Assembly: GCF_016865485.1 (NCBI RefSeq)
Contig: NZ_AP024452.1
Coordinates: 4,486,501-4,550,500, forward strand
DNA: 64,000 nt
Reading direction: 5' to 3'
Origin: Luteitalea sp. TBR-22
GTDB lineage: Bacteria; Acidobacteriota; Vicinamibacteria; Vicinamibacterales; Vicinamibacteraceae
The translations under genes were made by a program, and so were the position numbers. Positions 16,249 through 47,791 of this stretch are shown piece by piece. The notes beneath the pieces were generated by a model that was not told where the DNA came from, did not search any database, and saw only the letters and a program-made list of their open reading frames with translations. Numbering within the stretch: position 1 is the stretch's first letter; every line of letters begins with the position of its first letter.

Positions 16249-16280
16249 GAAGTTCACCCTCGATGGACGGCCGTCGTCAT

Positions 16281-16418
16281 TCGGCCGTCGGCCTTCGGAT
16301 CACACACCCGGCAGTCGGCAGTCGGCAGTCGGCGGTCGACCGTGACGCGACCGCTGCCGACGCGTCGGCACCCGACTCCCCACTCCCGATTCCCGACTCC
16401 CGACTCCCGACTCCCGCG
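16281..16418. repeat. double heptamer array between pilT and pilC
   Basis: The left half repeats CGGCAGT three times (16309 onward) plus variants. The right half has six units of CGACTCC with single-base variants (16373-16414). The array runs to the pilT stop codon and up to the pilC ribosome site, so it occupies the whole gap. Both unit types recur elsewhere (25584, 52661, 17875, 11847). Confidence 0.85.
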
Positions 16419-17546
16419 TCAGCGCCGCACCGGCACGCCGGGCATCCCCGGCCGGTTCAGGCCCGCGCCGGGGACCACGCCGCTCCCCCGCTGGATCATC
16501 TCCTGCAGTTCTTCCTTCATCGAGGAGGCCGCCATCGCCGTTTCCAGCGTGATCTGCCGCGCCATGTACAGCGACGCCAGCGACTGGTTCATCGTCTGCA
16601 TGCCGAGCTTCTCCTGCCCGGCCTGCATCATCGAGTAGATCTGGTGCACCTTGTCGTCGCGAATCAGGTTCCGGATTGCCGGCGTCGGGACGAGGATCTC
16701 GAGCGACACGACGCGGCCCGGCCCGTTGGCCCGGCGCAGCAGCGACTGGCACACGATGCCCTCGAGCACGAGCGACAGCTGCGTGCGGATCTGCGACTGC
16801 TGGTGCGCGGGGAACACGTCGATGATGCGGTTGATGGTCTGCGACGCGGAATTGGTGTGCAGCGTCGCGAACGTGAGGTGACCGGTCTCGGCGATCCGCA
16901 GCGCCGACTCGATGGTCTCGAGGTCGCGCATCTCGCCGATCAGCACCACGTCGGGGTCCTCGCGGAGCGCGGCGCGCAACGCGCCGCTGAAGCTCTGCGT
17001 GTCGCTGTGGACCTCGCGCTGGTTCACCAGGCAGCCCTTGTGCTGGTGGATGTACTCGATCGGGTCCTCGATGGTGAGGATGTGCTCGTTGCGCTCGGTG
17101 TTGATCTTGTCGATCATCGCCGCCAGCGTCGTCGACTTGCCGCTGCCGGTGGGACCGGTGACCAGCACGAGGCCGCGCGGCCGCTCCGACAGCCTGGCCA
17201 GGATCGGCGGCAGGTTGAGTTCCTGGAAGCCGCGGACCTTCTCCGGAATCAGGCGATACACCGAGGCGACGGCGCCGCGCTGGTTGAAGATGTTGCAGCG
17301 GAACCGGCCGACGCCGCGGATGCCGAACGAGAAGTCGAGTTCCTGCGTCTCCTCGAAGCGCTTCTTCTGGGCGTCGGTGCAGACGCTGTAGGCCAGCTGC
17401 TTGGTCTCGGGCGCCGTGAGCGCCGGCAGCTTCAGGGGCACCAGCTTGCCGTGCACGCGCACGGTCGGCGGGGCGCTCGTGGTGAGGTGGAGGTCCGAGC
17501 CGTCGAGCTCCACCGTCGTCTTCAGCAGTTCGGGCAGTGTCGCCAT
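16419..17546 (-). CDS. pilT: PilT, pilus retraction ATPase
   Basis: A 375-residue hexameric ATPase that pulls the pilus back. The ATG at 17546 (MATLPELLKTT) gives the standard start. A PAS-like N-terminal domain comes first; Walker A is GPTGSGKST (131-139), the Asp and His boxes follow, Walker B is PDVVLIGEMRD, and the retraction-specific AIRNLIR motif is present, which separates PilT from PilB. The C-terminus ends in a Pro/Gly/Arg-rich tail. A sigma-54-like site lies about 160 nt upstream. Confidence 0.95.
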   Translation of the reverse strand: MATLPELLKTTVELDGSDLHLTTSAPPTVRVHGKLVPLKLPALTAPETKQLAYSVCTDAQKKRFEETQELDFSFGIRGVGRFRCNIFNQRGAVASVYRLIPEKVRGFQELNLPPILARLSERPRGLVLVTGPTGSGKSTTLAAMIDKINTERNEHILTIEDPIEYIHQHKGCLVNQREVHSDTQSFSGALRAALREDPDVVLIGEMRDLETIESALRIAETGHLTFATLHTNSASQTINRIIDVFPAHQQSQIRTQLSLVLEGIVCQSLLRRANGPGRVVSLEILVPTPAIRNLIRDDKVHQIYSMMQAGQEKLGMQTMNQSLASLYMARQITLETAMAASSMKEELQEMIQRGSGVVPGAGLNRPGMPGVPVRR

Positions 17547-17721: not shown

Positions 17722-17874
17722 GAATCGTAACGGCCGAGCTCAAACCAGCGCCGGACGGCAACTGTCTCGCTGACAAGCACTTACGCCAACCGGCGAAAAT
17801 CGACCGGCGGCCGTCCCCCAACCAAGGTGCGGCAATTGCGTACCGGGGCTGACGGTGGAGCGACAGTTTTGAGG

Positions 17875-17961
17875 ATCCCGGGAGTCGGGAATCGGGAGTG
17901 GGGAGTCGGGGACATGCCCGGGCGTTCCGACTCCCGATTCCCGACTCCCGACTCCCGACGG
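17875..17961. repeat. inverted heptamer array between pilB and pilT
   Basis: The left arm has GGGAGTC and GGGAATC units (about 17879-17911). After a short centre, the right arm (about 17928-17959) has the complementary GACTCCC and GATTCCC units. The two arms can fold into a long hairpin. It follows the pilB stop by 5 nt in the transcript, so it may end or stabilise pilB mRNA before the pilT promoter. Confidence 0.85.
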
Positions 17962-17965
17962 AGTG

Positions 17966-19714
17966 CTACTTGACCGTCTCCCGCGTGACCTCTTCGGTCG
18001 TGGTGACGCCTTCCTTCACCTTGAGGAGGCCGCTCTGGCGGAGGGTGATCATGCCTTCCTCGATGCCCTTGCGGCGGAGGTCGAGGGCCGACGCGCCGGT
18101 GAGGATCAACTCGCGCAGGTCGTCGGTGATCTCGAGGACCTCGTACAAGCCCACCCGGCCCTTGTAGCCCGTGTGGTTGCAGGTCTCGCAGCCCTGCCCG
18201 CGCATCGGCACCACCGTCTGCGCGTCCTCGGGCGAGAAGCCGATGTCGATGAGGGCCTGCGGCGGCACCGGGTGCGGCACCTTGCACTTGGCGCAGACCC
18301 GCCGGACGAGGCGCTGGGCGCATATCAGGTTCACCGAGCTGGCGACCAGGAAGGGCTCGATGCCCATGTTCATCAGGCGGCTGACCGTGCTCGGCGCGTC
18401 GTTGGTGTGCAGGGTCGACAGCACGAGGTGGCCGGTGAGCGCCGCCTTGACGGCGATCTCGGCCGTCTCGAAGTCGCGGATCTCGCCGACCAGGATGATG
18501 TTGGGGTCCTGGCGCAGGAACGACCGGAGCGCCGCGGCGAACGTCAGGCCGATGCTCTCGCGGACGTTCACCTGGTTGACGCCGGCGAGGTTGAACTCGA
18601 CCGGGTCCTCGGCGGTCATGATGTTGGTCTCGAGCGTGTTCAGCTGCGAGATCGCCGAGTAGAGGGTGTTGGTCTTGCCGCTGCCGGTCGGGCCGGTGAC
18701 CAGCACCATGCCCCACGGCTTCTCGATCTGAGTCTTGAACTTCGACAGCGAGCTGGCCTCGAAGCCCAGCTTCGTCATGTCGAGCATCAACTTGTCCTTG
18801 TCGAGCAGGCGGAGCACCACCTTCTCGCCGAAGAGCGTCGGCAGGCAGGAGACGCGGAAGTCGATCTCCTTGCTGTGGCCCTGGTCGTTGATGCGGATCT
18901 TGATGCGGCCGTCCTGCGGCAGCCGCTTCTCGGCGATGTCGAGCTTGGCCATGATCTTCAGGCGCGAGATGATCGCGTCCCTGAACTTCATGGGCGGGTT
19001 CATGACGTTGTACAGGATGCCGTCGATGCGGAACCTGATGCGGAACTCGCGCTCGTACGGCTCGATGTGGATGTCGCTGGCGCCCTTCTGGATGCTCGAG
19101 GTGAGCACCATGTTCACCATGCGGATGACCGGCGCCTCGCCGGTCTGCTTCTCCAGCGCGGCGACGTCGATTTCCTCGAGGTCCTCCAGAACCTCGACGG
19201 CATCGCTGTTGGCGTCGGCCTGCTGCTGGGCGTCCTCGAGGGCGCGGTTGGCCAGCTCGAGGGTGTTGGGCATCGTCGCGGCGCGCGACGGCGCCGCGTA
19301 GTACTTCTGGAGCGCGTCGGCCACCGCCTGCTCGGAGGCCACCACCGGCTCGACGTTGTAGCCCGTCATGAACTTGATGTCGTCCATGGCGAACACGTTG
19401 GTCGGGTCGGTCATCGCCAGCGTGAGCGTGGCGCCGGCGCGACTGAGGGGCACGACCTGGTACTTCTGGGCGGTCTCGGCGGGAATCAGCTTGACCACCG
19501 CCGGATCGATCTCGAACTTGCCCAGATCGATGGACGGCACCCCGTACTGACGGCTCAGCAGCGCGGTGATCTCCTCATCGCGCACGAAGCCCAGCTTCAC
19601 GAGGTTCATCGCCAGCTTGCCGCCGTTGGCCTTCTGGTACCCCAGGGCCTCCTGCAGCTGCGTGGGCGTGATCTTCTTCTCCTTCAGCAGGAGCTCGCCG
19701 ATTCTGACCGCCAT
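17966..19714 (-). CDS. pilB: PilB, pilus extension ATPase
   Basis: A 582-residue motor that drives pilus growth; ATG 19714 with AGGGGAA upstream. The N-terminal GspE-N domain (about 5-140) is followed by an acidic linker (about 150-190), then the ATPase with Walker A GPTGSGKT (341-348), Asp box, Walker B QDPNIILVGEIRD and the His box. A zinc site made of VCAKC and CETC in the C-terminal part is typical of PilB/GspE. It works with PilC and opposes PilT. The gene lies about 420 nt upstream of pilT, separated by a heptamer hairpin. Confidence 0.95.
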   Translation of the reverse strand: MAVRIGELLLKEKKITPTQLQEALGYQKANGGKLAMNLVKLGFVRDEEITALLSRQYGVPSIDLGKFEIDPAVVKLIPAETAQKYQVVPLSRAGATLTLAMTDPTNVFAMDDIKFMTGYNVEPVVASEQAVADALQKYYAAPSRAATMPNTLELANRALEDAQQQADANSDAVEVLEDLEEIDVAALEKQTGEAPVIRMVNMVLTSSIQKGASDIHIEPYEREFRIRFRIDGILYNVMNPPMKFRDAIISRLKIMAKLDIAEKRLPQDGRIKIRINDQGHSKEIDFRVSCLPTLFGEKVVLRLLDKDKLMLDMTKLGFEASSLSKFKTQIEKPWGMVLVTGPTGSGKTNTLYSAISQLNTLETNIMTAEDPVEFNLAGVNQVNVRESIGLTFAAALRSFLRQDPNIILVGEIRDFETAEIAVKAALTGHLVLSTLHTNDAPSTVSRLMNMGIEPFLVASSVNLICAQRLVRRVCAKCKVPHPVPPQALIDIGFSPEDAQTVVPMRGQGCETCNHTGYKGRVGLYEVLEITDDLRELILTGASALDLRRKGIEEGMITLRQSGLLKVKEGVTTTEEVTRETVK

Positions 19715-27837: not shown

Positions 27838-27861
27838 GCGTCCTCGCTCGGTCAGGGCAAC

Positions 27862-27942
27862 GGGCTCAAGGCTCAGGACTCAGAAAGCATCCTGTGTGGT
27901 GTCTTCATGCTCTCTGAGCCCTGAGCCCTGGGCTTTGAGCCC
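27862..27942. repeat. inverted GGGCTCA heptamer element, arms differ by one unit
   Basis: The left arm (27862-27890, 29 nt) and the right arm (27907-27942, 36 nt) are inverted copies with two base differences, except that the right arm carries one extra 7-mer, CTGGGCT. The loop is 16 nt. The core next to the arms (AAGCATCCTG) also occurs, with changes, in the tuf-rpsJ element at 47696. It lies between the EF-G-like and PHP genes. Confidence 0.9.
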
Positions 27943-27982
27943 TCGAGGCCCACACGTTCCAGTTGCGCTAGTCTTGTCGGCG

Positions 27983-29825: not shown

Positions 29826-29947
29826 CGCCCTTCGCGTCCAGCGTCGGGCATTGCGCGTTCGGCATTCGGCCTTCTGTGTTCCCCGTGAGGCGTCAGGCCT
29901 TATCAGGCGTCAGGCGTTAGCCGTTAGCCGTCAGCCGTCAGCCGTCA
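29826..29947. repeat. GGCGTTA/GCCGTCA heptamer array
   Basis: Units include GCGTTCG, GCATTCG, then GGCGTCA, GGCGTTA, GCCGTTA and three GCCGTCA in a row. The array covers the space between two membrane-protein genes and runs into the stop codon of paralogue B (29945-29947), so the repeat supplies the stop. Confidence 0.85.
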
Positions 29948-30685
29948 CTCCGGGAGTCGCGTCGGATCGTTCCTGTCGTGTCGCGCGTGGCCGGCCGAGA
30001 ACGTCGGTGGCGCCTTGGGCGTGTTGCGGGCCGCCGGGTCGATCCCCTCGGGGCCGTCGAACATCGTCGCGCGGATGCGCTCGCGCTCGCCGGGCTTCAT
30101 GCCCCCGAGGTCGGCGAACAGCCGCAGTCCGAGGAAGCTCCACAGCATGCCCTGGCCGCCGAAGAAGTACGCGATTGGCAGCCCGATCAGGATCGAGACG
30201 ATCACCACGCTGGCTCGACTCGCCTGCCAGGCGATTCCCGTTTCCAGCCACGCCGGGGAGCGCACGGGCGCGACGACCGTGTCGAGGATGGCGGCCAGCA
30301 GCAGACCGCCGACCATGGGCCGCGCCCGGGCCATCATCGTGTCGAGCAGGTCGTCTGGCGGGCTGAGCCCAAGGGCCACGCCCGCGAACCCGACGCCCCA
30401 GACGAGGCCGACCAGAATCATCAGCAGCGCGCCCGGCACGCTGCGCCGCGTCCGCTTCAGCCTGGCCCTCACTTCCGGCTCGGCCGCGGAGGCCCGCCAG
30501 GCGATGGCGAGGCGCACGCCGAGCAGGGCGAGCGCAATCGCGGTCTCCGCCACGAAGAGGAGCACGGCGATGCCGTAGTGCTCGCCCTGGACGAGGGCGG
30601 CCGACGGGAACACGAACGCCACGATGCTCCACAGGCCCCGTCCTGCGCCGAACCGGGCCAACAGGCTCCCGAGCGGCCCCGCCAT
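29945..30685 (-). CDS. membrane protein, tandem paralogue B of three
   Basis: A 246-residue protein whose ATG overlaps the stop of paralogue C (TGATG). It has the same hydrophobic pattern as its neighbours and the shared motif DTVVAPVRSPAWLETGIAWQ. The C-terminal 50 residues are polar, and the last codons come from the adjoining heptamer array. Probably translated together with paralogue C. Function unknown. Confidence 0.8.
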   Translation of the reverse strand: MAGPLGSLLARFGAGRGLWSIVAFVFPSAALVQGEHYGIAVLLFVAETAIALALLGVRLAIAWRASAAEPEVRARLKRTRRSVPGALLMILVGLVWGVGFAGVALGLSPPDDLLDTMMARARPMVGGLLLAAILDTVVAPVRSPAWLETGIAWQASRASVVIVSILIGLPIAYFFGGQGMLWSFLGLRLFADLGGMKPGERERIRATMFDGPEGIDPAARNTPKAPPTFSAGHARHDRNDPTRLPE

Positions 30686-38019: not shown

Positions 38020-38039
38020 CGGTCTTCTCGATGCTCGCC

Positions 38040-38147
38040 GGCCTTCGGCCTTGGGCCTCGGGCCTTCGTTGGTCGCGATGCGGTCCGGCCGCGAGGGCGG
38101 TCGAGTGGACCGCCCTGACGGGGCCGTCGTTCAGCGTTCGGCGTTAC
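38040..38147. repeat. GGCCTTC heptamer array plus GCGTTCG units, rplO-secY gap
   Basis: Four perfect 7-mers of form GGCCTTC, GGCCTTG or GGCCTCG run from 38040 to 38067. A second group (GCGTTCG, GCGTTAC) at 38134-38147 overlaps the rplO stop codon. The element fills the gap between two essential cotranscribed genes. Confidence 0.85.
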
Positions 38148-38584
38148 AGGGTTTCTGCCGAGCCGCCAGCCGCCTGGATCTTCTGGGCGGCGGCGCCGCT
38201 GAACTTGTGCGCCCTGACCGTCAGCTTCTTGGTGATCTCACCGCGGCCGAGCACCTTGATCTTCTGGGTGCCCTGCGCGAGGCCCTGTCCGTGGAGCACG
38301 TCGGGCGTGACCTCGGTCCCGGCCTCGAACAGCTTCTCGAGCTGATCGAGGTTGATCACCGCATAGTCGCTGCGGAAGATGTTGGTGAAACCACGCTTGG
38401 GCAGCCGCCGGTGGAGCGGCATCTGGCCGCCCTCGAACCCGCGCTTGCGCTTGAAGCCCGAGCGCGACTTCGCACCCTTGTGGCCGCGGCCGGCCGTCTT
38501 GCCATTGCCGGAGCCCTGGCCGCGCCCGACGCGCTTGGTGGCGTGGGTGGCGCCGTCTGCCGGCTTGAGATCGCTCAAATCCAT
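38144..38584 (-). CDS. rplO: 50S ribosomal protein L15
   Basis: A 146-residue protein; ATG 38584 gives [20 protein letters not shown], the usual start. The Gly/Lys/Arg-rich N-terminal arm ([18 protein letters not shown]) reaches into 23S rRNA and the C-terminal domain follows. The last codons and stop lie in a heptamer array. It sits between rpmD and secY, flanked on both sides by heptamer elements. Confidence 0.97.
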
Positions 38585-38598
38585 AGTGAGATCCTGTC

Positions 38599-38712
38599 GG
38601 CCGTGGGCCATGGGCCCTGGGCCTTCGTGATTCAACATCCAGTCTGCGGGCGACCGCTTCGCCGCGGCGGTCGTGCACAGGCTCGAAGGCCGACGGCCCA
38701 GGGCCCGCGGCC
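38599..38712. repeat. inverted heptamer element, four units per arm, rpmD-rplO gap
   Basis: The left arm (38599-38626) is exactly four 7-mers of form GGCCNTG ending in GGCCTTC. The right arm (38685-38712) is exactly four 7-mers which, read on the other strand, are GGCCGCG, GGCCCTG, GGCCGTC and GGCCTTC. The arms flank 58 nt. This is the cleanest example of the paired-array layout and lies inside the spc operon. Confidence 0.92.
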
Positions 38713-38749
38713 AGCTCCGTTCAGGGCGCGTTCGACGAACGCGCCTGGT

Positions 38750-38974
38750 CTACTCGACGGTCACCATGTGGCGGATCTTCTGGATCATGCCGCGCATCGC
38801 GGGGTGGTCCAGCACTTCCACCGTGTGACCGATCTTGCGCAGGCCCAGACCCTTGACGATCTCGCCCTGCTTCTTGTCGTAACCGATCGTGCTGCGCACG
38901 AGCGTCACCTTCAGGGTCTTGCCCTTGGGTGCCGCCGGCGCGGCCGGCTTCTGTCGACGGGTGGTTTCCGGCAT
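38750..38974 (-). CDS. rpmD: 50S ribosomal protein L30
   Basis: A 74-residue protein. ATG 38974 has GAGG 5 nt upstream; a GTG directly before it is less likely. The L30 core begins at [20 protein letters not shown], after an N-terminal extension of about 20 residues rich in Pro, Ala and Lys that E. coli L30 (59 residues) lacks. It lies 7 nt after rpsE. Confidence 0.95.
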
Positions 38975-38981
38975 CACGTCC

Positions 38982-47671: not shown

Positions 47672-47695
47672 GTGCGTATCTTTCGTGATGGCTTC

Positions 47696-47791
47696 GGGCT
47701 CAGGGCTCAGGGCTCAGGGAGCGTCCTGGCACTGCCGGCGCAGGCCGACCCGGAATGCCTTCCGAGCCGTGAGCCGTGCGCCTCGAGCCGT
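47696..47791. repeat. inverted GGGCTCA heptamer element, tuf-rpsJ gap
   Basis: Three perfect GGGCTCA units (47696-47716) face four GAGCCGT-type units (47764-47791). The inner flank AGCGTCCTG matches AGCATCCTG of the element at 27862, and AATGCCTTCCGAGCC matches ATGCTCTCTGAGCC, so the two sites share an ancestor. It ends 4 nt before the tuf stop codon. Confidence 0.9.

Follow-up and report, generated by a model that had tools for sequence, protein, structure and literature searches.

A facing array of four plus four heptamers in the rpmD–rplO gap of Luteitalea sp. TBR-22, best read as one of a genome-wide population of period-7 arrays

The rpmD–rplO gap and its relatives

As shown in Table 1, the gap between rpmD and rplO in the spc operon of Luteitalea sp. 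TBR-22 contains two facing arms of heptamers. The gap was studied within a stretch of 64,000 nt, which was analysed as a whole and is called the window here. It is 165 nt long and mostly occupied by the four-plus-four element, which ends just 5′ of the rplO ribosome-binding site. A longer ORF for rplO begins at 38638, within the array. This start is unlikely because relatives align from MDLSDLKP.

Table 1. Positions of genes, repeat arrays and hairpins (window positions unless another contig is named).
Feature	Position	Strand	Description
rplO (L15), downstream gene	38144–38584	−	ATG at 38584
Left arm	38599–38626	+	Units GGCCGTG GGCCATG GGCCCTG GGCCTTC; direct reading and unit parse
Centre, 58 nt	38627–38684		Single copy in genome
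Inner hairpin of centre	38651–38657 / 38667–38673		CGACCGC / GCGGTCG
Right arm	38685–38712	−	Minus-strand reading GGCCGCG GGCCCTG GGCCGTC GGCCTTC; unit parse, inverted pair
Separate small hairpin	38722–38748	−	CAGGCGCGTTCG..CGAACGCGCCCTG; just past the rpmD stop; found by folding
rpmD (L30), upstream gene	38750–38977	−	Stop at 38750
Second array	38027–38071		GGCCTTC-type units; rplO–secY gap of the spc operon
Further arrays in window	16268–16425; 17873–17966; 27855–27944; 29844–29954; 47684–47791		Several with facing arms
Facing-arm example	17879–17957		GGGAGTC/GACTCCC
AATTTGA hairpin, examples	G000 C1:4749878–4750006; 206344–206473; 4574432–4574560		Dispersed family

A sequence-only reading of this DNA had described a perfect four-plus-four inverted element. 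Its count of four heptamers in each arm held, and the distance of 58 nt between the arms inside the rpmD–rplO gap was exact by unit parse. All eight units have the form GGCCNNN, so that each begins with GGCC on its own strand as had been claimed. The match between the arms was less than perfect: 24 of 28 positions were complementary when the arms were paired from the loop outward, and the longest arm pair given by inverted-repeat detection was 86% complementary. The lag-7 score of the 165-nt gap (13.5) exceeded those of all 400 dinucleotide shuffles, and its inverted-repeat score (19) exceeded those of all 200. The transcribed strand folded with −92.4 kcal/mol, whereas shuffles averaged −72.4 (z = −4.9). 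No match to the element was found in Rfam at the gathering score, and a plasmid collection searched with the spc region gave distant secY-type matches only. The array lies within a co-directional operon and is therefore probably transcribed; this arrangement and the strong fold suggest the large RNA stem that the same reading had proposed.

Five congeneric genomes, one per species, were used to compare the rpmD–rplO gap: TBR-22, G001, G002, G003 and G004. The gap of G004 is 93 nt long and contains 4+2 GGCC-type units, the arms being related to those of TBR-22 and the centre short and different. In G001 the 90-nt gap has AACGCCG units followed by GGCCGAN-type units; this direct array gives no stem, with an inverted score of 5.0 that lies within the shuffles. 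The unit nearest the Shine-Dalgarno sequence is GGCCGACAGGA in both TBR-22 and G001. The gaps of G002 and G003 are 19 nt or 25 nt long and lack an array, and the bare gap of G002 holds a single GGCCGA. The sequence-only reading had proposed such a comparison and had taken conservation base for base as the mark of a fixed regulatory RNA. Such conservation was absent. With 4+4 units, 4+2 units, a different array or none among the five congeners, its view of a variable or expanding array was supported.

Facing arms were also found in the rpmD–rplO gap of more distant Acidobacteriota. The Acidobacteriaceae locus L028 has 4+4 facing arms of AGTTTCN, and facing arrays of unrelated units are present in L015, L029 (octamers), L251, L252 and L253, as well as in L038 and G039, where they were read by eye. 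In many other relatives the gap, at 0–30 nt, is too short for an array, which makes the structure recurrent and not obligatory. Octamers (GAGGATTT, GGATTGCA and GTCTATCG) replace heptamers in the rpmD–rplO gaps of some relatives (L116, L115 and L029). Acidobacteriaceae-like genomes (L255–L273 and L022) share a conserved leader of the form GCGAGTCGG-(variable hairpin)-CCGGCGTTA-AGCGAGGAAA that runs up to the rplO start. Pairing in its hairpin was kept through two-sided changes in 4 of 10 pairs, and Rfam gave no match in ten of these loci. This leader directly 5′ of rplO is possibly an unlisted L15 leader RNA.

Period-7 arrays across genomes and orthologous gaps

Among all lags in the window, lag 7 gave by far the strongest self-similarity. 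At a threshold of at least 20 matches in 24, lag 7 was detected at 1175 positions in 460 kb of TBR-22 and at 1088 positions in 400 kb of G001. Period 8 was the second commonest (83 positions in TBR-22 and 42 in G001), and lags 2–6 and 9–13 gave at most 24 positions each in the two genomes at the same threshold. Arrays were then counted in 1.26 Mb sampled from TBR-22 and in 0.4 Mb of G001, with genes predicted by a simple codon-usage finder. The TBR-22 sample contained 147 arrays at a density of 78 to 150 per Mb, and 132 of them (about 90%) were located outside predicted genes; the density in G001 was 192 per Mb. Four units was the commonest array size in the 1.26 Mb, the low end of the size range being affected by a detection threshold near three units. 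Gaps genome-wide are filled with similar arrays, and the view of the element as a special insertion into the spc operon is not supported. Besides the element, the window has about ten other places with period-7 arrays that the first reading did not mention, including the one in the rplO–secY gap.

An inverted partner, defined as a reverse complement with a score of 14 or more no further than 160 nt away, was present at 17 of 69 arrays (about a quarter) in the first 460 kb of TBR-22. Controls taken at random positions or beside other arrays gave one to three. The 4+4 GGCC element is typical of this facing-arm subset. The G-rich arm came first in 23 of 25 pairs, or in 19 of 23 after removal of the AATTTGA family; this bias is only suggestive, since background inverted repeats lean likewise (30 of 48). 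Avoidance of divergent gaps was not general, the counts for such gaps being 0 of 28 in G001 but 22 of 138 in TBR-22. Outside these genomes, named rplO loci from many phyla (856 kb) contained 18 period-7 arrays, compared with one each for periods 6, 8 and 9, and the Clostridiales MAG Po218_bin63 carries facing heptamer arrays of AAAGTTG and TTTCAAC (L046:7780–8000).

TBR-22 and G001 were compared at 226 orthologous adjacent gaps. An array was present in both genomes at 23 gaps, in one genome only at 15 and 15, and in neither at 173 (p = 4.5e-12, unstratified). When the gaps were stratified by length, the 23 shared gaps stood against 11.5 expected (p = 3e-7). Identical units were found in 1 of 51 comparisons (2%) at orthologous gaps, which is no more than the 3.1% of pairs at unrelated loci between the two genomes. 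Within one genome, distant loci had identical units in 10.4% and 5.7% of pairs; for random heptamers with matching composition the value was 0.2%. The sharing of gaps together with the low identity of units indicates that arrays recur in place while their sequence is replaced, and the higher sharing of units within a genome indicates that each genome has its own favoured units. Between TBR-22 and G004, 3 gaps were shared, 5 had an array in TBR-22 only, 0 in G004 only and 53 in neither (p = 0.0016); one shared site had an identical unit and the other two had units two changes apart. A test of whether unit variants had been copied from locus to locus in ordered blocks was not significant against shuffled unit order in the larger classes; where the signal was most suggestive, 11–20 of 200 shuffles reached the observed value.

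Origin of the element

The 4+4 element is best read as belonging to the period-7 array population of Luteitalea-like bacteria, which recurs in other Acidobacteriota. The explanation that we favour, and regard as fairly probable, is a heptameric simple sequence repeat (SSR) array with facing arms, made by slippage and fold-back copying, turning over fast and tolerated in spacers. The structure of the element is shown, and so are the abundance and non-coding place of the arrays, their presence or absence in sister species, their recurrence in the same gaps and the turnover of their units. Replication slippage would have multiplied a short seed already resident in the gap; the single GGCCGA in the bare G002 gap and the GGCCGACAGGA unit common to two species would fit such growth. 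The second arm may have been made by fold-back copying, either snap-back or by template switch. The array would be transcribed as part of the spc mRNA and form a long stem there, tolerated between two genes that are translated separately and just 5′ of the rplO ribosome-binding site. It is likely to have at most a modest effect on mRNA processing or on the translation of L15.

Several points weigh against this explanation. Slippage is suggested here by comparison between species, with one genome per species. The sharing of units by distant loci goes beyond local slippage, and therefore inter-locus copying or a strong unit preference has to be added. Recurrence of a 4+4 hairpin in the rpmD–rplO gap across the phylum could mean selection for the stem. 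As a much less probable alternative, a selected RNA stem would divide rpmD from rplO in the spc mRNA and be repeatedly rebuilt from heptamer arrays, acting as an insulator, an RNase processing site or a control of L15 translation. The strong fold of the transcribed strand is in line with this, as is the recurrence of inverted arms with unrelated units in this gap of several distant Acidobacteriota; in two Acidobacteriaceae-like loci, L253 and L269, the heptamer hairpin lies between rpmD and the conserved rplO leader motif and leaves the motif undisturbed. However, many relatives, including two of the four congeners, have a stemless gap of 0–30 nt, the direct array of G001 forms no stem, and in TBR-22 arrays are as common in other kinds of gap. 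We also put forward, as a speculation with a rather small chance of being right, that certain Acidobacteriota gaps, rpmD–rplO included, keep a hairpin of about 4+4 heptamers that is rebuilt time after time, its place and fold persisting while its letters are replaced, with units copied between loci within each genome. Such hairpins would form a class of structured spacer that is marked out by its period and symmetry and not by its sequence.

Insertion of a mobile miniature element (MITE or REP-like) between rpmD and rplO appears improbable. TBR-22 does have a dispersed hairpin family with AATTTGA heptamer-like arms and a conserved centre in at least 40 copies, its genome gave two weak Y1 transposase-like matches, and in the sister species G002 and G003 the site carries no array. 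The gap flanks at these empty sites are too diverged to be aligned for a target duplication. The sequence-only reading had allowed for mobility, but movement as a unit is not supported: the 58-nt centre has no second genomic copy, and elsewhere only the heptamers match. In G004 the arms are related but the centre is not the same, and neither conserved ends nor a clear target duplication was seen. A REP/RAYT system was considered and rejected, there being only the two weak Y1 matches and no shared centre. The members of the AATTTGA family are about 129 nt long, occur in both orientations and have the form GGC-AATTTGAAATTTGA-(centre of about 75 nt, GC-rich and structured)-TCAAATTTCAAATT-GCC; five copies were read. 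This family resembles a MITE in which AATTTGA heptamers make up the terminal arms.

That the element is a repeat forming G-quadruplexes, a proposal made for the GGGAATC repeats of Xanthomonas and Nostoc, is very improbable. Some TBR-22 arrays do use GGGAGTC or GGGAATC units, 59 of the 147 arrays in the 1.26-Mb sample have a four-tract G3 motif, and arrays most often consist of four units. The GGCCNNN arms, however, do not have four G3 tracts, and 88 of the 147 arrays (60%) lack the motif, so that the rule of period 7 cannot be put down to quadruplexes. That the rpmD–rplO gap holds an intrinsic terminator or a promoter element can hardly be credited in spite of the strong GC-rich stem, since no site resembling either was found in 38400–38900, the stem is not followed by a T run, and termination there would cut off rplO and secY.

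It has been on record since 2007 that period 7 is in excess among bacterial tandem repeats, and we know of no accepted cause. The cause becomes testable in Luteitalea, where arrays number on the order of a hundred per Mb and turn over their units rapidly, and where complete genomes offer filled as well as empty sites. The alternatives to be separated are slippage with a step set by the polymerase, copying between loci and selection for the stem. Even the spc operon repeatedly accepts such arrays in one gap.

Comparison with known heptamer repeats

A literature search, with subscription journals mostly outside its scope, found no paper on such arrays in Acidobacteriota. Rehm et al. (2015, PMC4692102) cite heptanucleotide tandem repeats in Calothrix as well as a 2007 study in which heptameric SSRs were generally in excess among bacterial genomes. 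The arrays of TBR-22 resemble these repeats in their period of seven, their intergenic place and their large GC-rich genome; facing arms and an analysis of orthologous gaps do not appear in what is cited there of either. In Beggiatoaceae, TAACTGA heptamers lie just 5′ of start codons, including those of ribosomal-protein operons (MacGregor 2015, PMC4679880). TBR-22 likewise has heptamers in a gap of a ribosomal-protein operon. TAACTGA is one fixed unit and nearly always direct, with one inverted case reported (PMC4679880), whereas the TBR-22 units are variable (GGCCNNN) and the arms face each other.

Facing heptamers and the replacement of one unit class by another have their best precedent in the P6b stem of the group I intron in the tRNA-Leu gene (trnL) of Nostoc, which is built of degenerate heptanucleotide repeats (PMC4476775). 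In both cases complementary heptamer arrays form the two sides of a stem, the number of units varies and the unit class is replaced wholesale. The Nostoc stem belongs to a structured intron, while that of TBR-22 lies in an operon spacer.

The closest known case, and the same kind of object, is the heptamers of Xanthomonas and Nostoc (GGGAATC and GGGGA(C/T)T), which are tandem, genome-wide and non-coding with four units preferred (Rehm et al. 2015, PMC4692102). Related species keep GGGAATC-type repeats in the same gaps between genes while length and sequence change, and about 70 convergent inverted pairs occur per Xanthomonas genome (PMC4692102). TBR-22 shares with them the tandem 7-nt units, the genome-wide and non-coding occurrence, four as the commonest number, retention in corresponding gaps of related species with changing length and sequence, and convergent pairs at part of its sites, and some of its arrays use the identical GGGAATC/GGGAGTC unit type. 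What differs in TBR-22 is the variety of its units, with many families coexisting and mostly without G3 tracts (GGCCNNN in the element itself), the replacement, and not mere mutation, of units at gaps orthologous with G001, and a host in the phylum Acidobacteriota.
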